Assembly (NCBI GenBank): GCA_946497955.1
Contig: CAMMMH010000016.1
Location: 1-32,012, forward strand
Direction: 5' to 3'
DNA: 32,012 bases
Source: an uncultured Mycoplasmatota bacterium
GTDB taxonomy: Bacteria; Bacillota_I; Bacilli_A; RF39; UBA660
In this document: positions 3,692 to 20,280 of the stretch, one piece after another
How positions within the stretch are numbered: position 1 is the first letter of the stretch
Layout: each line of letters opens with the position of its first letter
The notes under the pieces: model-generated
Seen by the model: only the letters and a program-made list of their open reading frames with translations
Database searches by the model: none
What the model was told of the DNA's origin: nothing
Translations under genes and position numbers: made by a program

Positions 3692-3726
3692 TATATCACC
3701 CACTCTCTACTAAATCTAATAGATTA

Positions 3727-4185: not shown

Positions 4186-4709
4186 TAAGAATCAACCTCC
4201 CCTATTTTATTTAAATACATAGTCTCTGAAATAGGTTCTATTGCAAAAGTTAATTCATTCTCATTAATTGTAACTATATAATAAACATATTCTTGAAAAG
4301 TTGAATCATATAAAGTCTCTAATCTAAGCACTACTTTAACATAATATTTATAAATATTATTATATGAACTAAACTGATAAGCTTCCTCCAAACTACTACT
4401 TATATTAGTATCATAATTACCAACAAAGTTATAAATATTATCATTAGTAATATTATTTCTAGAAACGTAATCTGCAGATAATATTTTTAAAATAGACTCA
4501 CTATTTTTAGATGTAACATAAGAGAAGTACTTAGAAATAGCAGAATCTATAGTAAAAAAGCGATTAACATCAGCAAGAGCTGTAACAGATGTATTTATTT
4601 GTTGATCCTCAGTTTTCTTTTCTATCATTTTCGTATATATAAATGTACTAACAAGAATAATAATAAAAATAACAACTATAGACAATTCTATTTTTTCTAC
4701 TTTTTTCAT
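4185..4709 (-). CDS. Small single-pass membrane protein, VirB8-like candidate (first of two)
   Basis: 174 aa. Membrane segment at about 8-26 (LSIVVIFIIILVSTFIY), then an outside domain with an N-terminal helix (FFTIDSAISKYFSYV) followed by beta strands containing YKYYVKVVLRLETLY and YVYYIVTINENEL. The helix-then-antiparallel-sheet pattern fits an NTF2/VirB8-type fold. It is not alignable by eye with its downstream neighbour beyond this layout. The ATG start has AGGAGGAAACT upstream. It sits nine bases after the M23 hydrolase gene. VirB8-like is the best guess from order and topology; any other single-pass T4SS scaffold is possible. Confidence 0.6.
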   Translation of the reverse strand: MKKVEKIELSIVVIFIIILVSTFIYTKMIEKKTEDQQINTSVTALADVNRFFTIDSAISKYFSYVTSKNSESILKILSADYVSRNNITNDNIYNFVGNYDTNISSSLEEAYQFSSYNNIYKYYVKVVLRLETLYDSTFQEYVYYIVTINENELTFAIEPISETMYLNKIGEVDS

Positions 4710-6539: not shown

Positions 6540-8330
6540 TTAAAATCCTCCAGCCGTTCCAAATGACTCTAATTCTTCTTGGGTAACAACAACATTTATT
6601 CTCATACGTCTATTACCGCAAACAAAGAGTGCTTCTCCTTGAGAATAACGTTTAATACTATCTTTCTCATTTTCATTTAAATCTATCAGTAATGATAAAT
6701 CTTCAACTGCCTGTTTTCTAAGTCCCATAACAAGATAATATGATGAGTTATCAAATATTGCCTTACCCTGAGTAATAATAGCAGGACTAGAAAAATCACT
6801 AGGTTGTTGTGTAATAATTATTGTACCAGTATTATACTTACGAGCACGTCTTTGTACTTGAGCAAGGAAATCAGCTCCCTGTTCATTATTAGTACCAAGT
6901 AAAACATGTGCTTCATCTACCATTAATATTGTATTAACAGAAGAATCTAGGCATAGACCCCAAGCATATTTTAAGATATTAAAGAATAAAGCATTTCTAA
7001 TATTAGTATCAGAGTTCATAAACTCTTTTATATTAAATACCATAAAATCACTATCAGCAGTTAAAGTTGTCTTACCATCAAAATAGAATTTTAACTCTTT
7101 TATTAAAGGTCTAATTTTAAGTTCCAATGTTTGAATAATATCTTTTTCACGAGTCTGTTCTGTCAAAGACATAAGTCTACCTCTAATAGTAGCATAAACA
7201 TCAGAAAAAGTTGGATAATCAGCTGATGTAAATTTAGAAAAATCAGTATTAAAATCTATTCCAAAACGTTTATATGTATCTTGAACAATCTCACTAAACA
7301 TATTTAAGACATCTTCTTCAATAGAAGGATCATAATACTTCATAAAAGCTCTAAGAGACTGTAAGGTACGAGTTAAAACAGTATAACCAAGACCTTGACT
7401 CATCTCATCATCATCTGCATCAATAATGACTTCTAATGGATTAATAAGTCCATATTCTCCACCTTTACCGATATCAATAGTATCTCCTCCAAAAGTTTTA
7501 GTCATCTCTTCAAGCTCATTCTCAGGGTCAATGGCAACTATCTGACAACCATTTCTAATATGAGTTCTAAGTAGTAGTTTAGCAGCCGTAGATTTACCAC
7601 TACCAGAAGTACCAAGAATAATCATATTAGCATTATTTCTATTATTCTCTTTTCTTATTTGATAAAGAAATTGATTAAACAAGATAACTCCACCAGAAAA
7701 GTCAACTCCAAGTAAAACAGAAAGTCCTGGATCTTTAATACTATCAAAGATAAAAGGATACATCGCTGCAATAGTAGGAGAAGGAATTGGTGTACCAATT
7801 CTCTCTTCTATATCTTGATCAGGAAATATTGGTAAAATACTTTTCAAGACTTTCTCTTGTTCAAAACGAAGAGATACGGCTCTAAGTTCCATAGCATCTA
7901 AATAGTTTTTAACATTAACTTTTTTTAATTCCAAATCTTCTTTAGTATCAGCATTTATCATAATATGCATTTGAAAATCAAAGATACGAGACTGACTAGA
8001 AGCAAGCATTGAAACAAATGATTCAAGACTCTCAGCATCTTGCCTAATTCTCTCTTTAGCAGTTTGATCATGTTCTTGACGATACTTCTCACGTAAATCT
8101 GCGACTTGTCTATTTATCATCTTAGACATAGTACTAAATGGTACAGGAATATGTTTAATAACTATTTTAATACCACTCATAGATGTTAAAGTCGATAAGT
8201 ATCCAGGTGAAATAAAACGAGGATATGATATAACAGACAAAATAGTTGCATACTTATCACTTATAAAGAAATCACTTGGATTAAACTGTAATCCTTTAGG
8301 CGCTAATTGACTTTTTATACTTATACTCAT
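6540..8330 (-). CDS. virB4: VirB4-type T4SS ATPase
   Basis: The conserved energising ATPase of type IV secretion systems, peripheral to the membrane. In 596 aa: Walker A GTSGSGKS at 240-247, a VAIDPENE strand at 265-272, Walker B TILMVDEAH at 467-475, QVQRRARKYNTG at 491-502 (conserved Arg-rich motif) and IITQQP at 505-510. These are the standard VirB4/TraE/TrsE motifs in the standard order. The start overlaps the stop of the preceding gene (ATGA), with GGTGAT upstream, so translation is coupled. The protein is slightly short for Gram-positive VirB4, because the usual N-terminal domain appears to be encoded by the separate gene 8327-8884. Confidence 0.95.
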   Translation of the reverse strand: MSISIKSQLAPKGLQFNPSDFFISDKYATILSVISYPRFISPGYLSTLTSMSGIKIVIKHIPVPFSTMSKMINRQVADLREKYRQEHDQTAKERIRQDAESLESFVSMLASSQSRIFDFQMHIMINADTKEDLELKKVNVKNYLDAMELRAVSLRFEQEKVLKSILPIFPDQDIEERIGTPIPSPTIAAMYPFIFDSIKDPGLSVLLGVDFSGGVILFNQFLYQIRKENNRNNANMIILGTSGSGKSTAAKLLLRTHIRNGCQIVAIDPENELEEMTKTFGGDTIDIGKGGEYGLINPLEVIIDADDDEMSQGLGYTVLTRTLQSLRAFMKYYDPSIEEDVLNMFSEIVQDTYKRFGIDFNTDFSKFTSADYPTFSDVYATIRGRLMSLTEQTREKDIIQTLELKIRPLIKELKFYFDGKTTLTADSDFMVFNIKEFMNSDTNIRNALFFNILKYAWGLCLDSSVNTILMVDEAHVLLGTNNEQGADFLAQVQRRARKYNTGTIIITQQPSDFSSPAIITQGKAIFDNSSYYLVMGLRKQAVEDLSLLIDLNENEKDSIKRYSQGEALFVCGNRRMRINVVVTQEELESFGTAGGF

Positions 8331-8884
8331 ACAGGCATCACCGTCCCAAACTCAGTATTAACTCCCCCATTTAAGAAGTTTTCTAAAACTATTCTTAAGT
8401 CATCATTACTAACTTGTGCAGCATTTAAACCACAACTTGCAAGACCATTAATAAGCATTCTAACACGTTTCTGTAGGACATCTTCACTAGTATCTTTAAA
8501 TAGAATAAAGTACTCAGTATCAACAATATTATTATTAGTAAACATATTACCTTTATCTATATCTTGTAAAATAAGTTTACGAATAGCAGGAGATGTTGCA
8601 TCGTTATATAATAGTTGTAACTGTGACATATAAACAGAAATATCAACAGGTCTATCTGCAACAACTAACCAAAACTCAAAATCTATCATATTATAAAAGT
8701 TTTTAAGACTAATCATTACATTATCTTGATCTTGTTGATCAAGGATAAATATATTACGAGGAGTAATTTTAACTCCAGTAACTTTCTGTTTACCTTCACA
8801 AATTATATAACCATTTTGTATACCAGTAATAGGCAACCAATCTTCAGTATACTGACTACTTGTTGTTTTGGACATCTTTGACAT
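8327..8884 (-). CDS. Probable detached N-terminal domain of VirB4
   Basis: A soluble protein of about 185 aa, with no signal or membrane segment, between prgI and virB4. It begins TEDWLPITGIQNGYIICEGK and continues with short strands and an MISLKNFYNMIDFEFWLVVADRPVD stretch, which is how the N-terminal part of Gram-positive VirB4 ATPases typically looks (seen in sequence, compared from memory). It ends in ATGA overlap with virB4. I infer that it is the VirB4 N-terminal domain made as a separate subunit. The start is uncertain. ATG 8884 is used here, but ATG 8911 (GAAGGA only three bases upstream, overlapping prgI by 56 bases) and ATG 8875 are alternatives. Confidence 0.75.
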   Translation of the reverse strand: MSKMSKTTSSQYTEDWLPITGIQNGYIICEGKQKVTGVKITPRNIFILDQQDQDNVMISLKNFYNMIDFEFWLVVADRPVDISVYMSQLQLLYNDATSPAIRKLILQDIDKGNMFTNNNIVDTEYFILFKDTSEDVLQKRVRMLINGLASCGLNAAQVSNDDLRIVLENFLNGGVNTEFGTVMPV

Positions 8885-9182
8885 CTTTAACACACCAACC
8901 TTTCCATACATAATTCCTTCTATTAGTTAAGAAAGTATAAGCTTCTATAATAATTGTTAAAATATTATGATAATTAGGAATAGGAATAACAAGAAAAGCA
9001 GAAATTAAACCAGGCATAACCACAAGAATAACTTGCCAATTAGAAGACATTGGAAAAGTCATCAACAAGACAAGAGAAATCAAGACCCCAGTTCCTAACA
9101 ATATCAAATCAAAAGGTTTAAAGTAACCAAGAATAAGTTGACCACTCTTTGTATTAGCAGGTATTAAATAATTATTCACCAT
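8856..9182 (-). CDS. prgI: PrgI family membrane protein (VirB3-like)
   Basis: 108 aa with two membrane segments (about 23-43 and 49-70) and a short basic C-terminus containing the NYVWKGW motif typical of the PrgI/VirB3 group in Firmicutes T4SS. The N-terminal YLIPANTKSG also fits (the IP near residue 7 is conserved in the family). VirB3-like proteins sit in the inner-membrane complex next to VirB4. The usual order prgI then virB4 is kept here, with the small domain gene in between, which it overlaps. The start at 9182 has GGAGTGTGATAT upstream. Assignment is confident from motif plus position. Confidence 0.85.
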   Translation of the reverse strand: MVNNYLIPANTKSGQLILGYFKPFDLILLGTGVLISLVLLMTFPMSSNWQVILVVMPGLISAFLVIPIPNYHNILTIIIEAYTFLTNRRNYVWKGWCVKDVKDVQNNK

Positions 9183-9197
9183 ATATCACACTCCTTT

Positions 9198-11189
9198 TTA
9201 ATGTTTATTATATTGCTGATTAGCTTTTCGTGCACTATACTTAGTTGTATTCTTAATATTACGAGCAGCATCCGCAGCCGTAAACTGTACAGCTTTAAAT
9301 GATTTAACTGCCTTAGCAACCTCTCCAACATTTAATTTTTCATCAACATCACCAAATAAATCCAAATGGCGACTTCTATCAATACCACGAAGATTCTTCA
9401 AATCAATTTGCATTTGTGATGCAAAAGGACCGTCAGTATATTTTCCAGAAAGTACATCACCTATTAATTGCTCCTGTGCATCTTTATAGCTATTTCTAGC
9501 AGCAGTTAACTCCGCTTCACTAACACCATCGGCATTCTGTAAAAGTTCGTATCTTTCTTTTAAATCTTTTACAGATTGACCAGAAGCATCTTTCCAAACA
9601 CTATCAGCATCAGCTTTAGCAAAAATACTTTTTACCAAACTAGAAGCTTCATTATATCCTTCAACTTGCTGATCCATTTTATCAACAGGAGAAGATCCAG
9701 TGAAAGCACTTGAAAATTTATCAATCCCCCTACCAAAAAGAGTTGAATGTGCAGCACGTCTCGTCATATTTCTTTGCATTGCCGAATAAACAGCACCAGG
9801 TGCTTTTTTATCAGTAGTAGCTAAAGTTCTACCACCAACAAAAGCACCACCAATACCACCAGCAACACCAGAAGCACCAGCTCTTAAAACAGATAATGCG
9901 CCTCTACCAATTTTTCCAGGTGTACCTTGAGCCTTATCTCTAAACTCCTGTCCTTCCTGCCAACCAGCTCTAGCACCAGTTACAACAGATCCAGCTAAAC
10001 CTCCTGTTAAAGCAGCAGCTCCTAACATAGTACCAATACCACTAAATAGCTTCCCATCACCTTTGATACCTAACATATCTTGGAAAAACTTAGGAGCATC
10101 TTTCATAAATACTAAAATACCAATTATAATAAATATATTAGCAAGACCAGTAGTTAAGGCATTTGATGTATGTACCCAAGTAACTAAATCTCCATCTCTT
10201 AATAAGATTATCAAATATATACCAAAATAAATAATTATTAGTCTAATAAACAAGCTTAAATAAGTAGAAGTTAATGTCTTAACCCAATTACCAAAAGCCC
10301 CATCTTTTTCCTGACCTGGACTAATATAGGAAATAATAGGAACAGGGGCAATTAATCTTAATAATGCAAGTTTAATAGCCCTAACAGCAACATCTAAAGT
10401 AAATCCAATTATTATAATAGTCATTACAATAGCAACAACTACCCCACCAAATCCTGTATAACTAAAAGCATATGTTTCTCCATTTGCATTACAAGTATCA
10501 TTTATATGGTCTAATAAAGACTCAGAAGTAACTAAAGGATTAAAATAAGGTCCTACAATATCAGGACAAGCTGCAGCCTCTTCATAATTATCAGCTGTTA
10601 TATCATCGTAGCCATCATTTAAAGTTGGTGTAATAAAGGCTTTAGCAATATCTGAAGTAATAACATCACCAACATTTTGCATACCGTTTAATTGAAGTCC
10701 TCCAGAATTTGAAGTTGTACTTGCAGTTTTCGAACCAAGAATTAATTTACCTAAAATATTATCTTCAACAACACTATTTTGAAATTGATATAAAAGTCCA
10801 AATAATATACCATTGTTCTTAATTTGTTCATTTAAAGGATTACCATTTGTATTTGGAATATCAATAGGTACAATAACAGATAATAAGATTAACATAATTG
10901 CAATTCTTTTAACAAGAGAAGCAGCACCTTTTTGTTTATCTTTGAATAAATCAGGATTTACAATAATCTGTAAGAAGGTAATAGTTAATCTAAAAATCAT
11001 AAAAATACCTAATATCATTTGTATTCTTGAATAAAAGGTATCTATAACATCGCCTTGAAAAAAACTTGCATTTGCAATAGTAAAAAATATATTAAAAATA
11101 CCATTCAAAAAGAAATATCCTATACTATCTAATATAGCAAGAAAACCTCTACAAAAATTTGCAAGAAAACCTGGGTAACTCCAAAACAT
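9198..11189 (-). CDS. virB6: VirB6/TrbL-like polytopic channel protein
   Basis: About 663 aa. The N-terminal 400 residues carry around seven hydrophobic segments (roughly 15-50, 60-80, 105-120, 245-275, 300-325, 345-365), with an outside loop at about 125-235 that is rich in Asn/Thr and contains Cys. The conserved LRLIAPVPIISYISPGQEKDG region resembles TrbL/VirB6 family proteins of Gram-positive elements. The last 250 residues are hydrophilic and Ala/Gly-rich (GASGVAGGIGGAFVGG), then helical and charged, probably cytoplasmic. VirB6 forms the inner-membrane channel of T4SS. ATG 11189 is preferred over GTG 11198, because AGAGAAG sits too close to the GTG. A gap of 103 bases with an extended -10 precedes it. 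Confidence 0.87.
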   Translation of the reverse strand: MFWSYPGFLANFCRGFLAILDSIGYFFLNGIFNIFFTIANASFFQGDVIDTFYSRIQMILGIFMIFRLTITFLQIIVNPDLFKDKQKGAASLVKRIAIMLILLSVIVPIDIPNTNGNPLNEQIKNNGILFGLLYQFQNSVVEDNILGKLILGSKTASTTSNSGGLQLNGMQNVGDVITSDIAKAFITPTLNDGYDDITADNYEEAAACPDIVGPYFNPLVTSESLLDHINDTCNANGETYAFSYTGFGGVVVAIVMTIIIIGFTLDVAVRAIKLALLRLIAPVPIISYISPGQEKDGAFGNWVKTLTSTYLSLFIRLIIIYFGIYLIILLRDGDLVTWVHTSNALTTGLANIFIIIGILVFMKDAPKFFQDMLGIKGDGKLFSGIGTMLGAAALTGGLAGSVVTGARAGWQEGQEFRDKAQGTPGKIGRGALSVLRAGASGVAGGIGGAFVGGRTLATTDKKAPGAVYSAMQRNMTRRAAHSTLFGRGIDKFSSAFTGSSPVDKMDQQVEGYNEASSLVKSIFAKADADSVWKDASGQSVKDLKERYELLQNADGVSEAELTAARNSYKDAQEQLIGDVLSGKYTDGPFASQMQIDLKNLRGIDRSRHLDLFGDVDEKLNVGEVAKAVKSFKAVQFTAADAARNIKNTTKYSARKANQQYNKH

Positions 11190-11228
11190 TTCTTTCACTT
11201 CTCTTTCATTAAATATCTATCATTTACT

Positions 11229-11292: not shown

Positions 11293-12210
11293 TCACTGTA
11301 AAGTACAAGTAGTAGCATTAATAAATGATAATAACAATTGTACTAAAGTAGGCACTAAAAATAAACATATAGCAGCAACTAATCTAATAACTAATTTAGA
11401 CTGAGCTTCTTTCATTGCTTTCTCATCAAAGCCTACAACTGCTTTTATAAAATCTATTGCACTAAGTAAAACTACTAAAATAGGTCCTATTATTTTTATA
11501 TAATTTAATATTGTATAAAGTATCCAACCTACAGAACCAGGATCATTTATATCAATAATATCATTGCATTCTAATCCAGGATCATCAAAATCTTCCCTAT
11601 TTAATCCCTCTTCAAGGTATTCCCAATCTTCATCAGGATCTTCATTTCTATTACTACCATTGTTACCAGTTCCAGAACTCAAATCAAAATGTACAACATT
11701 ACCGGTTGGAAAACTAGTATAAATAGTTGCAGGACATGTATCTACTGCATTAAGACTATCAGAAATATCAATACTCCTACCTCTATCAGGATTAACGATT
11801 ACATCCCACTTATTACCATTTCTAGTAAAAGTATATCTAACATTTTGAGAATAGTAAAAACATCCTTCTGTTTTTTGCTGCAATTTAGCATAGGCATTTG
11901 TCCTTTTCGTTTCAGAAAAAGTAACACTACAAGTACCATTATAAGGAGTTTGAACTAAAACGTAAGCAGGACACTCACCTACTTCATAAGAAACTTTTTT
12001 ATTACAAGTAAGGCCATTACTGGTAAAAGAACCACTTAATTCTCCATCCTCATTCGTAAAAATAATATTAGCACCATAATCACAATTAACAACAGTTCCA
12101 CTTAAACTAGTAGCATTCTCAGCTTCATCAGCATAAACAATATCAGTAGTTAAAATATTAAATAACATTATTCCCAAAATAAATACTAATATATATTTTT
12201 TATTACTCAC
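11293..12210 (-). CDS. VirB2-like membrane protein with Cys-containing ectodomain
   Basis: 305 aa. Signal peptide (1-27, ending VYADEA), then an outside domain of about 160 residues with six cysteines (NCDYG, TCNKK, ECPAY, TCSV, GCFYY, DTCPA), an acidic linker (DPDEDWEYLEEGLNREDF), and a C-terminal module with two membrane helices. Those helices flank DFIKAVVGFDEKAMKEAQSK. The helix-loop-helix module matches the two small proteins encoded at 13515-13862 and 13912-14283 (KAV..., D.K..KEAQSKL...R pattern), which have the size and topology of VirB2/TrbC-type T4SS pilins. It is a paralogue of the gene at 12246-13433, with a 212-base identical DNA block. The GTG start at 12210 has GGTGATG upstream. 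The fused ectodomain is unusual for VirB2; its ligand is unknown. Confidence 0.8.
   Translation of the reverse strand: MSNKKYILVFILGIMLFNILTTDIVYADEAENATSLSGTVVNCDYGANIIFTNEDGELSGSFTSNGLTCNKKVSYEVGECPAYVLVQTPYNGTCSVTFSETKRTNAYAKLQQKTEGCFYYSQNVRYTFTRNGNKWDVIVNPDRGRSIDISDSLNAVDTCPATIYTSFPTGNVVHFDLSSGTGNNGSNRNEDPDEDWEYLEEGLNREDFDDPGLECNDIIDINDPGSVGWILYTILNYIKIIGPILVVLLSAIDFIKAVVGFDEKAMKEAQSKLVIRLVAAICLFLVPTLVQLLLSFINATTCTLQ
11354..11565. repeat. 212-bp direct repeat, copy 1 (inside VirB2-like gene)
   Basis: I compared this block base by base with 12307-12518 and found no difference over 212 bases, including synonymous positions. It ends at C/T on one side (11353 versus 12306) and G/A on the other (11566 versus 12519). 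Similarity continues with scattered changes outside. It encodes the two C-terminal membrane helices and the loop between them. Confidence 0.95.
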
Positions 12211-12245
12211 ATTGCATCACCATCAAATCTTAATAAAATAATATT

Positions 12246-13433
12246 TTAACCTAACGTACAAGTAGTGGCATTAATAAATGACAATAATAATTGTACTAAA
12301 GTAGGTACTAAAAATAAACATATAGCAGCAACTAATCTAATAACTAATTTAGACTGAGCTTCTTTCATTGCTTTCTCATCAAAGCCTACAACTGCTTTTA
12401 TAAAATCTATTGCACTAAGTAAAACTACTAAAATAGGTCCTATTATTTTTATATAATTTAATATTGTATAAAGTATCCAACCTACAGAACCAGGATCATT
12501 TATATCAATAATATCATTACATTCTAATGTGTTATCAAAATCTTCCCTATTTAACCCTTCTTCAAAGTACTCCCACTCATCTTCATCATCAATAGGAACA
12601 CCATTTTGTTCATTTATATTGTCATCAATCTGTTTTACTTCCTGTTGCAAACTATCAATTCTGCTTTCATAATTTTTATACTCATCACTATTTTCATCAA
12701 GGCAACCAGATTTTGTATAATCATTTAAAGCACTTCTAGCACTAGAAACGGTAATATTATAATTGTCAGTTATTTGTTGACATTCACGTCCCCACTGAAT
12801 TTTTTCAGGACTTGCCACTGTATCTTTCTCCTCTTGAGTTAATTCATAATTTTGACAACCCATTTCAGTTAACTTATTTCTATTACCCTCTAATAATGCC
12901 ATAGCATTATCAAGTGCATTTTTTTTACTAGTACAAGCTTGAGCTGACTCACTATCAGGATTATCTTTAATCTCTTCATCTCTTATGCTAGTTTCAAGAT
13001 AAGGAGTAAAACTTTGACCATATTTTTTTCTAATCTTATCAACCTGTTTATCAGTATTAGCAGCATATGCAGATCCTTTAGAAGATGCTTTGTTTTGATT
13101 AAAAACTAAATATCTTGGACATTGTTTATTTTTGCCAAACCAATCATCTAAAGCAAACCCTGTACCTTTTTCACTATTATAATTGCCAATTAAAACAGTC
13201 ATTCTTCCATTCGATCCCATATCATATTTACAGCTATATGAAAAACCACCAAAAAACAAAAAAGGGTCACTCCAATTAAATTCACAACTTATAGTACCAC
13301 CGAAAGAATTTTGACCAAGTTGATTTTCATTAACATAGTAACTACATTGCTTTGTAGTTTTTGCCTCTACTCCCACAGGTAATATCATAATACAAAACAA
13401 AACTAGAAAAGCTACCAACATTTTCTTCTTCAT
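12246..13433 (-). CDS. VirB2-like membrane protein with long coiled ectodomain
   Basis: 395 aa. Signal peptide (MKKKMLVAFLVLF..., ending GVEA), an N-terminal Cys-containing domain (QCSYYV, SCEFNW, SCKYD, QCPRYLVF) that shares the C-x-Y ... CPxYLV spacing with its paralogue, then a helical, coiled-coil-like region at about 120-280 rich in Glu, Lys and Asn with four further Cys. The end is the same DEWEYFEEGLNREDF linker and two-helix module as in the gene at 11293-12210. The C-terminal modules are virtually identical while the ectodomains differ, suggesting a conserved membrane base with a variable displayed part. The ATG at 13433 has GAGGTGG upstream and the promoter 13460-13488. Probably a T4SS pilus or surface subunit; exact role unknown. 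Confidence 0.8.
   Translation of the reverse strand: MKKKMLVAFLVLFCIMILPVGVEAKTTKQCSYYVNENQLGQNSFGGTISCEFNWSDPFLFFGGFSYSCKYDMGSNGRMTVLIGNYNSEKGTGFALDDWFGKNKQCPRYLVFNQNKASSKGSAYAANTDKQVDKIRKKYGQSFTPYLETSIRDEEIKDNPDSESAQACTSKKNALDNAMALLEGNRNKLTEMGCQNYELTQEEKDTVASPEKIQWGRECQQITDNYNITVSSARSALNDYTKSGCLDENSDEYKNYESRIDSLQQEVKQIDDNINEQNGVPIDDEDEWEYFEEGLNREDFDNTLECNDIIDINDPGSVGWILYTILNYIKIIGPILVVLLSAIDFIKAVVGFDEKAMKEAQSKLVIRLVAAICLFLVPTLVQLLLSFINATTCTLG
12307..12518. repeat. 212-bp direct repeat, copy 2
   Basis: Identical to 11354-11565 at an offset of 953 bases in the same orientation. A perfect match across third codon positions in otherwise diverged paralogues points to a recent duplication or gene conversion of the membrane module. 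Such a repeat could also recombine and delete 953 bases, fusing the two genes in frame. Confidence 0.95.
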
Positions 13434-13459
13434 AAAAGGTCCACCTCAATCATGATATT

Positions 13460-13488
13460 AGTATATCATTAGATGAAAAAAATAGCAA
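13460..13488 (-). promoter_or_regulatory. Internal promoter before the long VirB2-like gene
   Basis: On the minus strand TTGCTA (13483-13488), 17 bases, TATACT (13460-13465), with TGA just before the hexamer (extended -10). The -35 hexamer lies inside one arm of the terminator hairpin of the upstream gene, so the end of one transcript and the start of the next overlap. The start codon at 13433 is 27 bases downstream. Confidence 0.6.
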
Positions 13489-13503
13489 TTAATACATGCT
13501 ATT
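13476..13503 (-). terminator. Rho-independent terminator after 13515-13862
   Basis: Minus strand: AATAGCA, nine-base loop, TGCTATT, then a run of seven T. The seven-base-pair stem pairs 13481-13487 with 13497-13503. It begins 12 bases after the stop codon of the small VirB2-like gene. The stem is AT-rich, so it is probably partial and allows read-through. Confidence 0.6.
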
Positions 13504-13514
13504 CTAAAAACATT

Positions 13515-13862
13515 TTACATTTCCATTGGATTATTCCAACACTCACTCCATTTAATTAAAGTTTCATTTTCAGTAATACTTCCTACCATTGAAAATACTA
13601 AATTAACAACAGTTACAAAGAAAAATATTAATAAAGCATAAACTAATCTCTTAACAATCCTCTTTAATAAATCTTTATTTTTTTTATCATCACTACTAAT
13701 AACTGCTTTTCCTAAATCAAAAGTACAAAGTACTATTAATATAATAGGTATAGCAATCTGAATAATAGGAAATACTCCCTCTTTAATAACTCTAACGATA
13801 GCATCAAAACCATAACAATTACTATCTATATTTACAACAACTGTATCTAATATACTTATCAT
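13515..13862 (-). CDS. Small VirB2-like two-helix membrane protein (T4SS pilin-type)
   Basis: About 115 aa. A short N-terminus with NCYGFDAI, then two membrane helices (GVFPIIQIAIPIILIVLC and LLIFFFVTVVNLVFSMVG) separated by a charged loop, DLGKAVISSDDKKNKD. It closely resembles the neighbour at 13912-14283 and the C-terminal modules of the two long genes downstream. Size and topology fit mature VirB2/TrbC T4SS pilins. I chose ATG 13862 (start MISILDTVVV) because AAGGTG lies nine bases upstream. The ATG at 13883 has no ribosome site, and the shorter form aligns end to end with the neighbour. The SSDDKK loop has lost the AQSK part of the module. Confidence 0.8.
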   Translation of the reverse strand: MISILDTVVVNIDSNCYGFDAIVRVIKEGVFPIIQIAIPIILIVLCTFDLGKAVISSDDKKNKDLLKRIVKRLVYALLIFFFVTVVNLVFSMVGSITENETLIKWSECWNNPMEM

Positions 13863-13887
13863 ATTAACACACACCTTTTTCATATAG

Positions 13888-13912
13888 AAAAAAATAGCAA
13901 CTTAATTGCTAT
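13888..13912 (-). terminator. Rho-independent terminator after 13912-14283
   Basis: Minus strand: ATAGCAA, loop TTAAG, TTGCTAT, then seven T. The perfect seven-base-pair stem is at 13894-13900 with 13906-13912 and overlaps the TAA stop. It is almost the same hairpin as at 13476-13503, one gene further on. It probably lowers expression of everything behind the first VirB2-like gene. Confidence 0.65.
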
Positions 13913-14283
13913 TAACTTATCTCCGCAGGATAATTCCAACAGTTACTCCACTGGGTTAAAGCCTCATTACCAGTAATTTGTCCTATCATAGAGAACAATA
14001 AATTAAGAAGTGTTACAATAAAGAATACTAATATTGCATAAATACATCTTTTAATTAACTTAGATTGAGCCTCTTTAACAGCTTTATCATCACTAGATAT
14101 AACTGCTTTTCCTAAATCTAATGTACCTAAAACTATCAAAATAATAGGTATACCTATTTGTAAAATAGGGAATAAACCATTCTTAATAATTCTAATTAAA
14201 AAATCAAATCCACGACAATTACTTCCAGGATCAGCTGTTATATCAGTTAAAACTTGCATCATATTCATTAACATCATATTCAT
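13912..14283 (-). CDS. Small VirB2-like two-helix membrane protein, first of the set
   Basis: 123 aa. A Met-rich N-terminus (MNMMLMNMMQVL), SNCRGFDFLIRIIK, a membrane helix (GLFPILQIGIPIILIVLG), the loop DLGKAVISSDDKAVKEAQSK, a second helix, and a WSNCW end. The KEAQSKL string is shared exactly with both long VirB2-like genes, so all four form one family. ATG 14283 is preferred over an upstream start at 14334 because GGAGGAGAT sits directly before it. It is driven by the best promoter in the cluster (TTGACA...TATTAT) and followed by a terminator, as expected for an abundant structural subunit. The two conserved Cys could form a disulfide. VirB2/TrbC pilin role is inferred. Confidence 0.82.
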   Translation of the reverse strand: MNMMLMNMMQVLTDITADPGSNCRGFDFLIRIIKNGLFPILQIGIPIILIVLGTLDLGKAVISSDDKAVKEAQSKLIKRCIYAILVFFIVTLLNLLFSMIGQITGNEALTQWSNCWNYPAEIS

Positions 14284-14337: not shown

Positions 14338-15318
14338 TTACCGCTTAAATAAGCCAAATATTTTACCCCCACTCTCTTTTTCCTTAGTTTTATTAATAAG
14401 TCCTATCTTAGATAGAAAATCTCCAAGCACAGGATTCTTAACTCTATCATTTAATGGTGGAATATTATAAAAGACTTTAGTCTTTCCCTCATATTCGAAA
14501 TCCATAATATCACTATTAGAAAGTAAACTCATATTTAAAACTATCTTTTTACCTTTTAACTCATCAAATATTCGCCTATCTCTTTTCATTAATTTATTAA
14601 GTCTAATACTAGAAGGCTCTATTAAATATAAAACATCATTACAAGCCCCTTCATTACTAGAATCATTCAAATCTATCAATATTATTGAGACATCATTATG
14701 CTTAACAATCTCAGTCATTAAATGTTCATCATCAACAGAAATCATATTACTACTATTAAAATATAGAAAATCATGCCTATTAACTTCAATAGCAATTACA
14801 CTCATACCATAAGACTGTTCCAACTCTTTTTTTAACATATAAATAAGTGTAGTACTTCCTGCATGATCAGTAATATTTTTAATTCCAATAATTCTAGAAC
14901 CAGAAACTACTTTTTCATTAATAGTTGTAGATAAATCATTAAGTTGCTGAATATGAGCTACATCTTTATATGTATTGGGATGATCTAAAAAATATTTAAT
15001 TCCATCAACAGTTGTAGTAAAATTATAAATCCCCATTGAAATTATTTTAGATAAGTAAGCACTAGAAGTTGAAGCTTCTGTATTAGGTAGCAAAAGAATG
15101 ATTTTATCAGCATCGAGACCAATAGATATTTTTTGGATATTAGTTATATCCTCATAATCTTTAATTGCCGTAACATCTAAAATCATTCTTGCATAAAAGA
15201 AGTTCTTGAACATTTCAACAATTTCATCAGCTGTATGAACACCATCAACACTCTTAATAACATCAATATCTAAAGTAGATAGCATTCCTTTCGCTTCGTT
15301 AGCAATTATAACGTTCAA
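14338..15318 (-). CDS. TadZ/CpaE-like protein with degenerate P-loop
   Basis: 326 aa, soluble. The N-terminal 110 residues look like a receiver-like alpha/beta domain (IILLLPNTEAS and MGIYNF strands, with no clear phosphoacceptor Asp). From about 141 it follows the ParA/MinD fold: SRIIGIKNIT, then DHAGSTTLI at 151-159 where a deviant Walker A (GGxGKTT) should be, VIAIEVNRHDF and IILIDLND. Both the signature Lys and the Gly pattern are missing, so ATP binding is doubtful. TadZ/CpaE proteins place the Tad machine at the pole and often carry atypical Walker boxes. The start is a TTG codon (15316-15318) with AAAAGGAGTGA eight bases upstream; no in-frame ATG is near. It ends in GGKIFGLFKR. Confidence 0.75.
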   Translation of the reverse strand: MNVIIANEAKGMLSTLDIDVIKSVDGVHTADEIVEMFKNFFYARMILDVTAIKDYEDITNIQKISIGLDADKIILLLPNTEASTSSAYLSKIISMGIYNFTTTVDGIKYFLDHPNTYKDVAHIQQLNDLSTTINEKVVSGSRIIGIKNITDHAGSTTLIYMLKKELEQSYGMSVIAIEVNRHDFLYFNSSNMISVDDEHLMTEIVKHNDVSIILIDLNDSSNEGACNDVLYLIEPSSIRLNKLMKRDRRIFDELKGKKIVLNMSLLSNSDIMDFEYEGKTKVFYNIPPLNDRVKNPVLGDFLSKIGLINKTKEKESGGKIFGLFKR

Positions 15319-15338: not shown

Positions 15339-15785
15339 TCAATAGATTGTCCTAGTTTCACCTACAACTCTTAAAAAATTCCCTAATCCTAAGATATTAT
15401 TAATTACAGGAATATCAATATTAACAAATGTAACAACTGTATAATAAGTACCCTGTCTTTCTCCATCACCATCATTAGTAGTTACATTATGTGGAACATA
15501 ACACCATCCATTATAGTTAGGACACTCAGCATCAGGATTATCATTTTGAAAATTTAATAGTTGTTGATTATTTACATTATAAGTTATTTGATTAATATAA
15601 CTATTTATTTTCTCAAGTGCTTCATCATTATAAGGACCTTCATATTGTTCAATAATATTAACGATTTGATTCTTAACTCGAAATGCTCTTGTATAATTGA
15701 CAGAATAAGCCATATATCCATTAATTAAAAGAACAAAAGCTAATATAATTTGTAAAGTAAAAACTTGTCCTATCGCATCTCTCAT
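15339..15785 (-). CDS. TadE-like pseudopilin
   Basis: 148 aa. The N-terminal membrane helix follows a short leader (MRDAIGQVFTLQIILAF), then a helical stretch (FRVKNQIVNIIEQYEG) and a soluble C-terminal domain with one Cys pair (ECPNYNGWC). This is the layout of TadE/TadF pseudopilins of Tad pili. The leader M-R-D-A-I-G-Q-V matches the first residues of the Flp-like protein encoded just upstream (M-K-E-A-T-G-E-L), suggesting both are processed alike, perhaps after the Gly. The start has AGGATGTG upstream. No prepilin peptidase is present in the window. Confidence 0.7.
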   Translation of the reverse strand: MRDAIGQVFTLQIILAFVLLINGYMAYSVNYTRAFRVKNQIVNIIEQYEGPYNDEALEKINSYINQITYNVNNQQLLNFQNDNPDAECPNYNGWCYVPHNVTTNDGDGERQGTYYTVVTFVNIDIPVINNILGLGNFLRVVGETRTIY

Positions 15786-15812
15786 TATTAATCACATCCT
15801 AACATTTTTTTA

Positions 15813-15983
15813 CTACTTAATAGGTTTTACAACATTAACTTGAGAATTAACATTATCATTCCAACTGTTTTGAATAGCAGGTTGAATAACATTAGGCCAA
15901 AATATTGCAAAAAATGCAGTAATAACACCAATTAGAACGATAGTTACTACAGTCATGTTTAACTCTCCAGTTGCTTCCTTCAT
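15813..15983 (-). CDS. Flp-like small pilin
   Basis: 56 aa: leader MKEATGELN, one hydrophobic helix (MTVVTIVLIGVITAFFAIFW), then PNVIQPAIQNSWNDNV and a short polar end. Size, single helix and position right after tadC fit an Flp/type IVb pilin, the main subunit of Tad pili. The usual G-XXXX-E processing motif is not exact: Glu directly follows Gly. An 82-residue reading from 16061 exists, but the real start is ATG 15983, with AAAGGAGAG upstream and a dedicated promoter (16018-16046) that lies inside the longer reading. Own promoter plus small size fit an abundant fibre subunit. Confidence 0.75.
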   Translation of the reverse strand: MKEATGELNMTVVTIVLIGVITAFFAIFWPNVIQPAIQNSWNDNVNSQVNVVKPIK

Positions 15984-16017
15984 TAAAACATCTCTCCTTT
16001 CATATCTTACAAATATA

Positions 16018-16046
16018 ATTATAACAAATAATTTTAATTTTGTAAC
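16018..16046 (-). promoter_or_regulatory. Promoter of the Flp-like pilin gene
   Basis: Minus strand GTTACA (16041-16046), 17 bases, TATAAT (16018-16023), with TGT directly before the hexamer (extended -10). It lies wholly in the 70-base gap behind tadC and about 35 bases before the pilin start, as expected for extra expression of a fibre subunit. Confidence 0.65.
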
Positions 16047-16053
16047 TACTTTT

Positions 16054-16833
16054 TTATGCAATCATTGTTAACATTGACGCTAATATTACAACCATAACAC
16101 TAACACCAGTTACAACAAGCATAATCATAGTCATATTACCCATACGATCAAGACGTTCTTTATATTTAGTCTCTCTTGCTTTTTGCTGTAAATTTGACAC
16201 AGTTCTAGAAAACATCAATAGTCTCTCTTGTTTCTTCTCCTGTCCTCCAAGACCTAAACGATATAAAAGACGCATCATTCTCATAGAATCCCTAACTGGA
16301 TATGTATTCGCAAAATCCATATAAGGAGTAATACTAGAATCACCAGAATTAATCTTTTCAATTAATTCTCGAAGCCCTGGTTTAAAAATGTCAGGAGCAT
16401 CATTTATACTTTTACCAATCGCTACAGGTACAGTATAATGCTGTATTAATATTTCTAAACTCTTTAAATAGTATGGCAACATTATATCAATTTGATGCAA
16501 ATGTTTTTTGTAATATGACTTTAATTGCATATATGGCATTTTAAAGACAAGAGCAGCTACTATAATAGCAAGAATAACATTTAAAGCTGTAACATTATCA
16601 ATAAATAAAAACATAAATACAAAGAAAACACCAATAGCCCATATTACTCTTTTTTGAAATAAAACATTAGGAGTAGCACTATCACCATACCTAGCATAAA
16701 CAAGAAAATCATAATCAGACTCTCTTAATATTTCAAAATACTTTTTATTATCATTAATAAACTGATTTTTATCTATTGTTCTATTATAAACCAAAATAAA
16801 TAAAATTATTGCCGCAACAAATACTATTTCCAT
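16054..16833 (-). CDS. tadC: TadC-like inner membrane platform protein (T2SSF domain)
   Basis: 259 aa. Membrane segments near the N-terminus (1-15, 70-105) and at the C-terminus (about 235-257), with a cytoplasmic helical T2SSF domain between them: PYYLKSLEILIQHYTVPVAIGKSI and later LLYRLGLGGQEKKQERLLMFSRTVSNL. This is the arrangement of TadC/GspF-type platform proteins, which couple the CpaF ATPase to pilus assembly. It lies two bases behind tadB and the two are surely cotranscribed. TadB and TadC are a heteromeric pair in Tad systems. Confidence 0.87.
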   Translation of the reverse strand: MEIVFVAAIILFILVYNRTIDKNQFINDNKKYFEILRESDYDFLVYARYGDSATPNVLFQKRVIWAIGVFFVFMFLFIDNVTALNVILAIIVAALVFKMPYMQLKSYYKKHLHQIDIMLPYYLKSLEILIQHYTVPVAIGKSINDAPDIFKPGLRELIEKINSGDSSITPYMDFANTYPVRDSMRMMRLLYRLGLGGQEKKQERLLMFSRTVSNLQQKARETKYKERLDRMGNMTMIMLVVTGVSVMVVILASMLTMIA

Positions 16834-16835
16834 AC

Positions 16836-17729
16836 TTATTCAACCCCCACATTCTCATTATAATATTTTTCTCCTTTTAAAAGGAAATAACAATTAAATA
16901 TAATAATAAAGTGAAGTACAAGCTTAACCCAAATACTCTTAATTAACTCAACATAACTATCGCTTCCAAGCATATATTGAATAAGCATAACTAAAAGGAA
17001 TAGCATGATACCATATTGTAAAAACTTTTTATGAAATGTCGCTCTATCCATTCTATCTCTATATACACTTTCAACAAGAGTATCGATATCAAGTTGCATA
17101 TTTTCCAAACTCTCTCCAGTATCTCTAGCACCTTCTTTAGTTATTTGTAAAAATAACTGATGCATATTTTTTACTATATAATATGGATACTTATCACTAA
17201 AGAACTTTAAAGCTCCATCAATCGCTCCATCTTCATATGACATATCAATCATATGATTAACATCTGTTAGAACAGGATCTTCCAAGACTCCAGAATCTCT
17301 AACCCCCTCAAGTGATTTAACAAAACTTTGAGTTGTAGCAAATTCCATAATAACATTTGTAGTATATATTTGAATTTGTTCAAATATAAATTCACTATAA
17401 ACTCTTTTACATCTTAAAAAAGATAAATAAGGTACAAAAGATACTGTAATAGCTACATAAATTAATGATACTATTATATTATAGAAATATAAATATGTAA
17501 CCACTAAAGCAAATCCACCCATAATCAAAATTTGAATAAGATATTGTCTTGCTGTATATTCTTGCCCTAACTGTTTAGTCTTTTCTCTTACGATTTTATA
17601 AGAGTAAGGTGCAAATTTATCATATATTGCCTGTACTTGATCAGTAATATATTTAGAAACATTTTGCCCCTTATAATTTCTATATAATAAAACGATAAGT
17701 GCAATTATTAACAGTAAAAAAAGTACCAT
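16836..17729 (-). CDS. tadB: TadB-like inner membrane platform protein (T2SSF domain)
   Basis: 297 aa. N-terminal membrane helix, two central ones (about 65-110), a helical cytoplasmic T2SSF domain (IYTTNVIMEFATTQSFVKSL; FLQITKEGARDTGESLENM) and two C-terminal helices (about 240-285). The G-x-x-x-T-G-E-S-L-E pattern is characteristic of TadB/TadC. Strong ribosome site GAAAGGAGGGG. It follows cpaF after 16 bases. Together with TadC it forms the membrane base on which CpaF acts. Confidence 0.87.
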   Translation of the reverse strand: MVLFLLLIIALIVLLYRNYKGQNVSKYITDQVQAIYDKFAPYSYKIVREKTKQLGQEYTARQYLIQILIMGGFALVVTYLYFYNIIVSLIYVAITVSFVPYLSFLRCKRVYSEFIFEQIQIYTTNVIMEFATTQSFVKSLEGVRDSGVLEDPVLTDVNHMIDMSYEDGAIDGALKFFSDKYPYYIVKNMHQLFLQITKEGARDTGESLENMQLDIDTLVESVYRDRMDRATFHKKFLQYGIMLFLLVMLIQYMLGSDSYVELIKSIWVKLVLHFIIIFNCYFLLKGEKYYNENVGVE

Positions 17730-17745: not shown

Positions 17746-18960
17746 TTAAACTATCTCAGTATCATTAGAAAATGGTACTTGAACAGTATTATTAACTTGA
17801 TTAACATTATTAAAGTTAGGAGACTCCACTACATTGACAGATTGTTGATTAAGATTAACAGAATTATCAACAGCATTAACAGCATCATCAATATTACTCA
17901 TTGAATCACCTTTAGTAAATAAATTATCAATAAAAATATTTTGATTTTCAAGATATTCTTTCAAATGTTCAGTAGGCATATTTTGTACTGGTGCTTTACC
18001 AAAAGTCTTTTGATAAAGAATATGAGATTGAGGTCTATTATTATCATCAACATAAAACTCTACTACTTCGTCAACTTCACGATGGAATTTACCATATTCT
18101 TTACTATAATATGCTTTAATATGAACACCTAATTGAATATATCTATATATTGTCGTTAAAAACTGATCTACATCTATATCACTTTCCAAAAGTGAATACA
18201 TACGATAAGGAATAGCACTAGCTTTATCAGCATGAATTGTAGATAAAATATTATGACCTGAACTTATTGAATTACGAACTGCAGTAACTGCCTCTGCACT
18301 ACGAACCTCTGATAGTAAAATCCATTTAGGGTTTTGACGCATACAAGTAACAAGAACATCAGAATAACTAGCTACATTATTAGTCTTCATTGCAACAATA
18401 TCACGATGTGGGAATATCTTATCCAAATGAAGTTCCAAAGTATCTTCAATTGTAATAATCTTCTCGTCCTCTTTAGTATGGCTAGCAAGATATTTAACAA
18501 ATTCTGTCTTACCTGAACCAGTCTCTCCACTTACCATAATATTACAATGTCCTTCAACACATTTCATTAGGATATCATGAATATTGGCAGTAAAATAATC
18601 TTCGCTAAGTAATTTTTCTCTTGATAATCTAATCTTAGCAGGAGTCTTACGAATAACAACTGCTATTCCATTAGTTGCAATAGAATCATGAACAAAGTTA
18701 AGACGAAGTTCTGTAGATTCAGCATCAAGAAATGGATTAGCCCCATTAAATGTAGTTCCCATAACATTAGAACACTGAAAAGCTAATTTTTCTACAAAAG
18801 AATCACTTATTCCTTCTATTTCAACTCTCTTAGAACCTTGAGATAAAGAACGAACCCATATCTGTCCATGATTGCAATAAGAAATATCCGTTATATCATC
18901 ATCTTTAATTAAAGGTTCAAAAAGTCCAAAATCCAGTTTATCAAATATGGAATCGTTCAT
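17746..18960 (-). CDS. cpaF: CpaF/TadA secretion ATPase
   Basis: Cytoplasmic hexameric ATPase of the VirB11/PulE superfamily that powers Tad pilus assembly. In 404 aa: an N-terminal domain with DDITDISYCNHGQIWV, Walker A GETGSGKT at 145-152, Asp box TIEDTLEL at 170-177, Walker B ILLSEVRSAEA at 214-224 and His box GHNILSTIHAD at 235-245, all intact. The last 60 residues are a Asn/Val/Gln-rich tail (NNVNQVNNTVQVPF) not usual in the family. Because VirB11 is the T4SS relative, it could in principle also serve the T4SS genes downstream, but adjacent tadB/tadC argue for the Tad role. Start ATG 18960 with GGGAGTGATT upstream. Confidence 0.93.
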   Translation of the reverse strand: MNDSIFDKLDFGLFEPLIKDDDITDISYCNHGQIWVRSLSQGSKRVEIEGISDSFVEKLAFQCSNVMGTTFNGANPFLDAESTELRLNFVHDSIATNGIAVVIRKTPAKIRLSREKLLSEDYFTANIHDILMKCVEGHCNIMVSGETGSGKTEFVKYLASHTKEDEKIITIEDTLELHLDKIFPHRDIVAMKTNNVASYSDVLVTCMRQNPKWILLSEVRSAEAVTAVRNSISSGHNILSTIHADKASAIPYRMYSLLESDIDVDQFLTTIYRYIQLGVHIKAYYSKEYGKFHREVDEVVEFYVDDNNRPQSHILYQKTFGKAPVQNMPTEHLKEYLENQNIFIDNLFTKGDSMSNIDDAVNAVDNSVNLNQQSVNVVESPNFNNVNQVNNTVQVPFSNDTEIV

Positions 18961-18976
18961 AATCTAAATCACTCCC

Positions 18977-19801
18977 TTATTGTTGCGTATAGGCTAAATC
19001 TTCTTCAGTCATCGCTGTAACATTATTAATAAAGTTTCTTAAATCTTCACTAGATAAAGTAACATCTCCTGGCTCATCTGCTAATGATTCTGCTGTAGGA
19101 ACAGGTATAATCTCAGACTCATAAGCTCTTAAGAAACTAGCTTTACGAAGCAATATATGATATTCTTCAGGAATAGCAAAGATAATCTGAGCCGGTACTG
19201 TCTTTTCATCTAAGTTAGCAAAAACATTGTTACCACTACTATCAAATACAGCAAGAACTTTAACATTAGACAATAATTTACCAACCATAATTCTATCATC
19301 AGTAACAATCGTACCATCAGCATTTTGTGCATTTTGAACTTTTAGATAAATATCAATATAATTACCAGGATAAATAGAATTACTATAAGTACTAGCCATA
19401 TCAACATCTAAGTTATATAGTACATATCCTTTAGGATAATCTAAAATTATACTATCAGGTAATTGTTCACGAGATACAACACTTCTTTTATAGAACAAGC
19501 TACCTTCAGGAATAACGCTATCACCATTAGAATACATATCAATAACATCCGCACTATTAGTTATTATATTATCATTAACCATAGACTGAGGAATTTCCAT
19601 AGTACTAACCATATCTTCTGTAATTTGTGTTCGAGGATTAATCTCTTCAATTGCATAAGGTACACTGACAGGTGTAATCGCTTGATTAATACGCATATTA
19701 TATCCAACATACAATACTATAATAGCAAGTATTACACCAACAACAGTAACTGTATTTTTATTAGTTAAGAATTTCTTTATTCCAACAAGTAAATTATTCA
19801 T
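18977..19801 (-). CDS. cpaB: CpaB/RcpC-like protein with SAF domain
   Basis: 274 aa. Membrane helix at about 18-34, followed by a SAF-type domain (TPVSVPYAIEEINPRTQITEDMVSTMEIP, about 43-74), GSLFYKRSVVSREQLP and YVLYNLDVDMAST, then the RcpC-like stretch PGNYIDIYLKVQN. This is the usual make-up of CpaB/RcpC proteins; in diderms they sit in the periplasm of Tad systems and bind glycan, whereas here the protein would face the outside of a monoderm cell. AAGGAGG upstream of ATG 19801. It opens the canonical cpaB-cpaF-tadB-tadC order. Confidence 0.87.
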   Translation of the reverse strand: MNNLLVGIKKFLTNKNTVTVVGVILAIIVLYVGYNMRINQAITPVSVPYAIEEINPRTQITEDMVSTMEIPQSMVNDNIITNSADVIDMYSNGDSVIPEGSLFYKRSVVSREQLPDSIILDYPKGYVLYNLDVDMASTYSNSIYPGNYIDIYLKVQNAQNADGTIVTDDRIMVGKLLSNVKVLAVFDSSGNNVFANLDEKTVPAQIIFAIPEEYHILLRKASFLRAYESEIIPVPTAESLADEPGDVTLSSEDLRNFINNVTAMTEEDLAYTQQ

Positions 19802-19818: not shown

Positions 19819-20280
19819 TTACTCATCAACATCACTATAATCAAGTTTACCTGCTCTAGTCATATCTGTTACATACTTATTCTCATAATATCTAGATTCT
19901 AATATTACATTTACTCTATTAGTAAGTTCAACAGACTCCCCATTTATACTAGCAGCAGTATCAGACTTAACCAAAATACTAACTTTAGGTGGTGTTTCAT
20001 TTATATCATAAAAACCAATATCATAAGTTCTATTATTAGATACATTTTGAGCAAAACGTCTAATAAAACTCTCAACAAACTTTTCTTTATCTATTCTTAA
20101 TAAACCGCTTAAGCGGTAATAACCAACATCAACTGCATCAGTCATTGCCGCTTCTGCTGTTTCTCTTAGCAAGTAATAATCAAGCTCATTACCTGTCTGA
20201 TAGTTCTGAACAATATTAACAACTCCAAAAGTAATAACAGCTAAAAGAATAATACCAAGAACTAACATTGCTTTATTCAT
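19819..20280 (-). CDS. Single-pass pseudopilin-like protein of the Tad cluster
   Basis: 153 aa. MNKAMLVLGIILLAVITFGVV forms an N-terminal membrane helix, followed by a long amphipathic helix (LDYYLLRETAEAAMTDAVD) and a small beta domain. The layout (N-terminal helix continuing into a soluble helix) is that of type IV pseudopilins and TadE-like proteins; there is no clear leader peptide Gly. It lies 17 bases before cpaB. I do not recognise the family; pseudopilin is the best guess from architecture. Confidence 0.6.
   Translation of the reverse strand: MNKAMLVLGIILLAVITFGVVNIVQNYQTGNELDYYLLRETAEAAMTDAVDVGYYRLSGLLRIDKEKFVESFIRRFAQNVSNNRTYDIGFYDINETPPKVSILVKSDTAASINGESVELTNRVNVILESRYYENKYVTDMTRAGKLDYSDVDE

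Follow-up and report, generated by a model that had tools for sequence, protein, structure and literature searches.

How does a bacterium come to keep, side by side, four pilin-like genes that share one membrane base and, in two cases, add unlike exposed parts to it? This question is raised by positions 11293-14283 of the stretch of DNA analysed here, referred to below as the window (an entire contig of 32,012 bases, C16 of genome G000). The four proteins belong to a chromosomal operon that joins Tad-type genes to a type IV secretion system (T4SS). Their C-terminal module (the base) and the N-terminal ectodomains of the two longer proteins (the heads) recombine independently, and this uncoupled evolution of head and base is what is new here. 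The preferred reading, to which a probability of about 0.55 is given, is that the window pilins are subunits of a chromosomal, relaxase-less T4SS fused with Tad genes, in which the headed pilins would be minor or tip subunits with exchangeable recognition heads.

The Four Pilin Genes and Their Host

Genome G000 comprises 1.72 Mb and is 92% complete; other labels beginning with G or L denote genomes or loci of its relatives, except for L156 and L157, which are loci of G000 itself. Judged by VirB4, its closest named relatives are Candidatus Onthousia and further uncultured Bacilli/Tenericutes metagenome-assembled genomes (MAGs), and by this measure the host is a gut Bacilli MAG resembling Candidatus Onthousia.

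The initial annotation of this DNA had described four tandem genes sharing one module, and all four open reading frames (ORFs) are indeed present on the minus strand. They are separated by gaps of 28, 81, and 35 nucleotides (nt) and followed by 94 nt to virB6; the mechanically called ORF of bare pilin 1 begins at TTG 14334, and the ATG start is used instead. The two short pilins, announced as about 115-123 residues long, measure 122 and 123 aa. The two long ones carry a signal peptide and a Cys-containing ectodomain as had been claimed, with about 180 (pilin A) and about 275 (pilin B) residues between signal peptide and module in place of the 160 and 270 given earlier. The annotated loop D-x-x-K-A-V...D-x-K (DxxKAV..D.K..K) occurs in all four, as DLGKAVISSDDK in two and as DFIKAVVGFDEK in two, and the two helices around it appear in the AlphaFold models of both headed pilins. 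The string KEAQSKL was likewise found in three of the pilins (genes at 11293, 12246, and 13912). A search with the 395-aa protein detected the module in 88 of 98 family genomes, so the observation is not due to chance. A set of four holds for the window and not as a rule, the usual set in most relatives being one bare and one signal-peptide-bearing pilin.

Separate Evolution of Head and Base

In the window, the modules of pilins A and B are identical in amino acids (100%) and nearly so in nucleotides (98%), and their ectodomains are unrelated. The identity (98-100%) breaks off sharply some 270-290 nt ahead of the stop codon, where 30 matches out of 30 give way to 19 and then to 6. Similar pairs with unlike ectodomains are found in G044 (modules 99% aa, 97% nt identical), G004 (99% aa, 93% nt; separate contigs), G090 (96% aa, 98% nt; divergent orientation), and G078 (90% aa, 89% nt; separate contigs), and the module is also homogenised on unlike ectodomains in L079, L080, L081, and L085, which are of the same genus. 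With the window, this amounts to nine genomes with modules 90-100% identical in amino acids. Breakpoints were located by window counts anchored at the stop codon, a method that fails where genes end differently (L080, L085, L061/L062); they are therefore claimed only for the window, L079, L081, L034, L049, and L032/L067. Local-alignment scores for adjacent gene pairs were ignored as trivial overlaps of flanks.

The heads follow another distribution. Ectodomain type B occurs in the window, L073, L081, and L082, type F in L079, L080, L081, L084, and L087, and type G in L079, L080, and L085; the types thus recur across species in differing combinations, and the same type carries a diverged module elsewhere. 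Synonymous divergence (dS) between modules is 0.04-0.77 within a genome; between genomes, modules that bear one and the same head type differ by 0.13-1.70. On a tree of 23 modules, the genomes need 4 changes, which is the minimum for five genomes, and the head types need 13, the minimum for seven types being 6. Forcing type B into a clade costs 99 log-likelihood units, and this clade is rejected.

A recent case is provided by L072, a sister species and the nearest relative by VirB4 (99%) among the matches listed. Between the window and L072, nucleotide identity is 97-100% over most of the operon and falls to as little as 85% in patches of TadA-TadC, VirB6, and VirB4. L072 lacks gene B as a clean unit. 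The ectodomain of pilin A is mostly 73-83% identical in nucleotides, as against 95-100% for its module and the bare pilins, and dS is 0.49 for this ectodomain and 0.01-0.06 for the bare pilins and PrgI. Mosaic recombination is seen across the whole region and is most marked in the head.

It follows from the grouping of modules by genome and from the L072 comparison that base and head recombine independently. The pattern requires recombination between head and base, either by gene conversion of the module or by head replacement. The constant membrane base with swappable exposed parts that the initial annotation had proposed is borne out by this concerted evolution of the module, through identity, breakpoints, dS, and tree alike. 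An assembly artefact would be the least probable source of the near-identical modules: all genomes are MAGs and repeats are error-prone in short-read assembly, but several projects contributed to the nine genomes with the pattern, the copies do differ at synonymous sites (within-genome dS as above), and the copies stand in distinct contexts, namely in tandem, divergently, and on separate contigs.

Family Assignment of the Module

The Pfam family T4SS_pilin (PF18895) is matched by 35 of 50 modules at E<=0.1 (best E=4.2e-8), and 21 of 58 family genomes contain sequences that score over its curated cut-off of 26.6 bits, ectodomain-bearing frames of 305-431 aa among them. In addition, the NCBIfam model of the pilin-like Mbov_0395 protein of an integrative conjugative element (ICE) is matched by 18 of 50 modules. 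A lack of profile similarity to VirB2-type pilins, which would have refuted the initial annotation, was thus not observed, T4SS_pilin being matched; membership in TrbC/VirB2 (PF04956) was dropped, no profile match being found in the genomes searched. The pilins are called T4SS_pilin-related because family modules match T4SS_pilin while TrbC/VirB2 is unmatched. Two features of VirB2-type pilins are present, i.e., two predicted helices around a short charged loop and a gene encoded together with VirB3, VirB4, and VirB6, VirB3/PrgI being recognised by position only. By profile comparison, the module is homologous to T4SS_pilin and no member of TrbC/VirB2; in architecture and context it is VirB2-like. 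A sequence search for relatives of the module with solved structures returned chance matches only.

When the pilin hidden Markov model (HMM) was iterated, N-termini of VirB6 were drawn in. An iterated HMM can confirm itself, and profile-profile comparison with controls was therefore performed by hhalign; residues 50-113 of VirB6 gave a probability of 45 (E=2e-4) against the pilin hairpin, as compared with at most 7 for two-helix controls. This is suggestive, and as a lead, VirB6 and the pilins could share an ancestral hairpin.

The Tad/T4SS Operon and Its Conservation

The features of the window are listed in Table 1. The Tad-type block lies upstream of the pilin genes, and the T4SS genes from virB6 to virD4 follow downstream in the same direction. 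A TadA-family ATPase and RcpC, as expected of a Tad system, are encoded in one operon, RcpC scoring below its own cut-off. The TadB, TadC, and Flp pilin candidates fit in position, size, and order and lack Pfam matches; the names TadB, TadC, TadE, and TadZ rest on position and conservation, none having a convincing Pfam match. The VirD4 frame is cut by the contig end in the window, and a full-length homologue of 750 aa is present in L072 (E=1.5e-58). The DUF5411 gene is placed between the surface protein and RcpC.

Table 1. Pilin genes, their modules, and neighbouring genes of the operon (window coordinates).
Feature	Positions	Strand	Remarks
Bare VirB2-like pilin 1	13912..14283	-	123 aa from ATG at 14283; no signal peptide
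Bare VirB2-like pilin 2	13515..13883	-	122 aa; no signal peptide; Mbov_0395 pilin-like model E=0.027
Ectodomain-bearing pilin B	12246..13433	-	395 aa: signal peptide, beta-rich CxY...CP domain, three-helix bundle, linker, pilin module
Constant module of pilin B	12249..12521	-	aa ~305-395; nucleotides nearly identical to pilin A module
Ectodomain-bearing pilin A	11293..12210	-	305 aa: signal peptide, beta-strand-rich Cys-containing ectodomain, linker, pilin module
Constant module of pilin A	11296..11568	-	aa ~215-305; T4SS_pilin E=0.096, 13.2 bits, below cut-off
VirB6/TrbL-like channel protein	9198..11198	-	666 aa; PF19597 E=2e-10; NF045848 E=7.5e-8
VirB6 N-terminal hairpin resembling pilin module (suggestive)	10860..11051	-	aa 50-113; profile comparison
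PrgI/VirB3-like two-helix protein	8856..9182	-	by position, size, conservation; no Pfam match
Conserved 194-aa protein between PrgI and VirB4	8327..8911	-	function unassigned
VirB4 ATPase	6540..8330	-	596 aa; NF045975 (Mbov_0397 ICE model) E=3.7e-104
M23 peptidase, VirB1-like wall hydrolase	4719..6509	-	PF01551 E=4e-24
Two small membrane proteins (174, 152 aa), VirB8 candidates	3727..4709	-	position only; no family match
NlpC/P60 protein	2369..3703	-	PF00877 E=3e-5
Lipoprotein of the operon	1667..2365	-	
VirD4 coupling ATPase	99..1286	-	PF02534 E=3.7e-59; frame cut by contig end
Conserved 326-aa protein in TadZ-like position	14338..15318	-	name inferred from position
Small pilin-like (82 aa) and TadE-like (148 aa) proteins	15339..16061	-	names inferred
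TadC-like and TadB-like membrane proteins	16054..17729	-	names from position; no T2SSF Pfam match
TadA/VirB11-superfamily ATPase	17746..18960	-	T2SSE E=3.5e-28; TIGR03819 E=4e-32; VirB11 E=9e-32
RcpC/CpaB-like protein	18977..19801	-	PF16976 E=3.6e-5, below cut-off
DUF5411 protein, family-restricted operon marker	19819..20280	-	PF17424 E=1e-49
936-aa Cys-rich surface protein and sortase	20282..23855	-	

Operon order was surveyed in 20 loci from module-bearing genomes and in 80 loci among at least 571 relatives found by VirB4 alignment, and the same order was observed in most of the 20 and most of the 80. Sixty-one of the VirB4 loci, with at least 4.5 kb upstream of virB6, are informative; pilins are present in 60 of them, a Tad gene in 59, and a last pilin adjoining virB6 in 59 (median gap to virB6, 20.5 nt). 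The expectation that the pilin genes co-occur with VirB4 in other genomes is thus confirmed. In all 61 loci with TadZ, VirB6, and VirB4, the interval from TadZ to VirB6 contains two or more pilins. The last pilin carries 25-485 residues before the module (median 205), and the short second pilins among those printed retain the signal peptide. VirB4 is 70-98% identical to the window copy across 18 relatives, with a mean column identity of 82% over 19 sequences. All 14 family members in a 120-genome class sample have DUF5411, and no other genome of that sample has it above cut-off. Gene set, synteny, homology of the modules, and conservation throughout the family are shown by these data, and the pilin-bearing operon looks like a vertically kept chromosomal trait.

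The presence of VirD4 and VirB4 would also be expected of an ordinary ICE with accessory surface genes. This explanation is very improbable. No relaxase, which a conjugative T4SS would have alongside its machine, is found among the Pfam matches of the window, and the single relaxase match of the genome lies on contig C12 together with a second VirD4. Dozens of relatives, whose VirB4 is 70-99% identical, keep the operon order, the DUF5411 marker follows the family as described above, and the headed pilin has no plasmid match and no confirmed match among viral contigs. A conjugative element was rejected on the lack of a relaxase and the family-wide synteny. The stretch with the relaxase and the second VirD4 (G000:C12:14000-30000, L157) looks like a separate integrative conjugative element.

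Predicted Structures of the Headed Pilins

The AlphaFold model of the 395-aa pilin B has a mean predicted local distance difference test score (pLDDT) of 80. Its hairpin is formed by helices 317-349 and 353-394 (pLDDT mostly 75-87), and its ectodomain is modelled as a beta-rich domain (aa 26-138) and a three-helix bundle (162-276) with pLDDT mostly above 90. The model of the 305-aa pilin A (pLDDT 60) contains beta strands followed by helices 227-260 and 263-303. The Cys pair C30/C105 is nearly invariant among 34 headed pilins.

Fold searches with the 305-aa model (pLDDT 60) gave no significant match, and those with the 395-aa model gave no significant known fold and no known adhesin. The bundle of the 395-aa model matched many unrelated bundles at Z of about 10, under the kinship level for bundles, and these matches were set aside. 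CagL of H. pylori, a T4SS tip protein, came at Foldseek rank 50 with a probability of 0.23 and was not counted as evidence. According to an HMM of the ectodomain domain, this unit occurs in no other named protein of the operon.

A thioredoxin-like lipoprotein with a CSHC motif is encoded at 27370-27774 of the window (plus strand), on the strand opposite to a neighbouring operon of Cys-rich surface proteins. It may, as a candidate, introduce disulfides into the ectodomains.

Proposed Role and Its Alternatives

The charged loop of VirB2/TraA-type T4SS pilins is cytoplasmic, with both termini outside. By analogy with these pilins, the N-terminal ectodomain of a headed pilin would therefore be displayed outside the cell. 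In the model of the R388 system, VirB5 stands at the pilus tip, atop VirB2 pilins that are recruited by VirB6 (reviewed in PMC12857230). No VirB5 was identified in the present system, and a headed pilin encoded directly before virB6 is plausible, by this analogy, as a fused VirB5 equivalent.

According to the preferred reading, the bare pilins would be the common subunit of a pilus, or of a channel extension built on VirB6. The headed pilins would be minor or tip subunits, fitted into this structure by the two-helix hairpin that they share with the bare ones, with the ectodomain facing outward as a contact or recognition head in a role analogous to that of VirB5. Recombination among the nearly identical modules, together with import of ectodomains, would replace, add, or delete heads and leave the machine-fitting part unchanged. 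Pilus assembly, the tip position, and ligand binding are thus proposed for these proteins, and the presence of VirD4 implies that the machine may translocate protein or DNA as a secreted substrate.

Several observations weigh against this reading. All four proteins of the window fall below the T4SS_pilin cut-off, the best reaching 13.2 bits (11293-12210), and TrbC/VirB2 has no match in G000 or in any of the 10 further family genomes that the phylum sample lists. No pilus has so far been seen in this bacterial group. Only 25-93 residues precede the module in 27 of 60 relatives, and a large head is therefore not essential to the machine. Confidence in the ectodomain models is middling or low, and they matched no known adhesin. 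Homogenisation is not universal, as the modules of G010, G015, G048, G064, and G071 are merely 26-59% identical within each genome, and every genome compared is a MAG. Finally, dN/dS for the pilin A head versus L072 is 0.176/0.49, i.e., less than 1, so that fast replacement is claimed and positive selection is not demonstrated.

Another possibility is that the headed pilins are membrane-anchored surface adhesins or receptors, held beside the VirB6 platform by a hairpin that merely anchors and does not polymerise; the head would then be displayed by the cell surface and not by a fibre. A pair of long hydrophobic helices would suffice for this purpose, the pilin genes adjoin virB6, VirB6 itself has a similar N-terminal hairpin, and some headed pilins are orphans encoded at a distance from any T4SS genes. 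However, the anchor belongs specifically to the T4SS_pilin family and is conserved together with bare pilins in every complete locus, and the conserved loop and arginine positions exceed what an anchor needs. This explanation is judged unlikely, while being the strongest of the competitors to the subunit reading.

Rapid change in the exposed parts while the base stays constant would also suit heads that are exposed antigens or phage receptors, with replacement driven by phages or host immunity and not by target recognition; for pathogens, variation among tandem pilins has been discussed as an aid to immune evasion (PMC12102498). Direct evidence for such escape is lacking. The Cys framework of the heads is conserved, and separate head types are maintained from species to species, as would suit a set of binding specificities no less than escape. 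As a driving force, escape therefore appears rather improbable, but it is compatible with target recognition.

If the heads of the proposed minor or tip subunits do recognise targets, a broader and more tentative picture may be drawn. The reduced-genome gut Bacilli would possess, on their Tad/T4SS composite, a self-renewing set of recognition heads, exchanged via the homogenised module between the operon and dispersed orphan genes. Exchange would change the target cells, possibly the gut bacteria on which they depend, as some Patescibacteria depend on a T4SS.

Comparison with Known Systems

T4SSs of the Gram-positive type have been reported without VirB2 pilins, with the exception of Patescibacteria, whose arrays contain 2-11 tandem VirB2 pilins with a mean identity of about 25% (PMC12102498, PMC12857230). 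The Patescibacteria T4SS (PMC12102498; T4SS_pilin, PF18895) resembles the present one in being monoderm-type, chromosomal, and mostly relaxase-less, with tandem divergent VirB2-like pilins near VirB4 and with homologues of VirB6 and PrgI/VirB3. In contrast, the present operon is found in Bacilli and includes Tad-type genes, and its modules are homogenised within many genomes, whereas the Patescibacteria arrays show at most 54% identity. Its signal-peptide-bearing pilins have up to about 480 residues before the module.

In the Trw system of Bartonella, trwL (VirB2) and trwJ (VirB5) are tandem and multi-copy, and TrwJ binds erythrocytes (PMC3406051). Tandem variant pilus components and a minor component, TrwJ, that mediates host-specific adhesion are points of likeness, but the recognition part is there a separate VirB5 protein in a diderm host, and here it is fused to a VirB2-type base.

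In IncI plasmids, conjugation specificity is conferred by PilV adhesins (PMC9045228). The PilV shufflon likewise combines a constant assembly part with a variable adhesin part that changes partner specificity, PilV being a type IVb pilin whose variable part is switched by a site-specific recombinase; the pilins described here have a T4SS-type hairpin and a variable N-terminal part. A shufflon of this type has a recombinase beside inverted repeats. In the window, the module copies are direct repeats and no recombinase or integrase is found among the Pfam matches of the ORFs; the pattern fits homologous recombination.

The pilin-like protein of Mycoplasma ICEs (Mbov_0395/MMCAP2_0565, NCBIfam NF045849) is related by the profile similarity given above, and the window VirB4 is nearest to the Mbov_0397 ICE model NF045975. 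However, the Mycoplasma model has 80 positions, no ectodomain, and a mobile element as its context, and the present operon is chromosomal and family-wide.

Large N-terminal heads on T4SS-type pilin bases, a homogenised module, and a Tad/T4SS operon appear to set this system apart from Patescibacteria, Trw, and PilV. A literature search combining these features returned no description of such a system, its coverage being partial and no proof of absence. The operon adds a second monoderm group with family-wide chromosomal VirB2-type pilins, here fused to large external heads that are uncoupled from the base. It can be tested as an example of a secretion machine whose docking heads are exchangeable, and its evolutionary history may record shifts in the target range of such machines. 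The joining of Tad genes bears on ATPase sharing between T4SS and Tad systems.

Further Observations on Pilin Loci

Headed pilins away from virB6 were noted at L032:11577-12788, L067:4817-5923, L041:9123-11295, and L049:9596-12171, where they adjoin housekeeping genes or sit downstream of virD4; the two in L049 are divergent, with their module copies as inverted repeats. A further pilin-like protein of 118 aa (T4SS_pilin E=1.3e-4) is encoded at G000:C31:1371-1727 (L156), with no T4SS gene in the stretch read.

Unrelated genes lie between TadZ and virB6 in L091:2259-3554, L086:1-1089, L098:251-6487, and L095, marking an insertion hot spot. The intruders, named by eye and not by profile, include a TnpB-like transposase protein (L086) and a Fic-like fragment with other unplaced genes (L098). 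The NlpC/P60 gene (2369-3703) varies strongly in comparison with L031 (55% identity) and L073 and constitutes a second variable spot of the operon.

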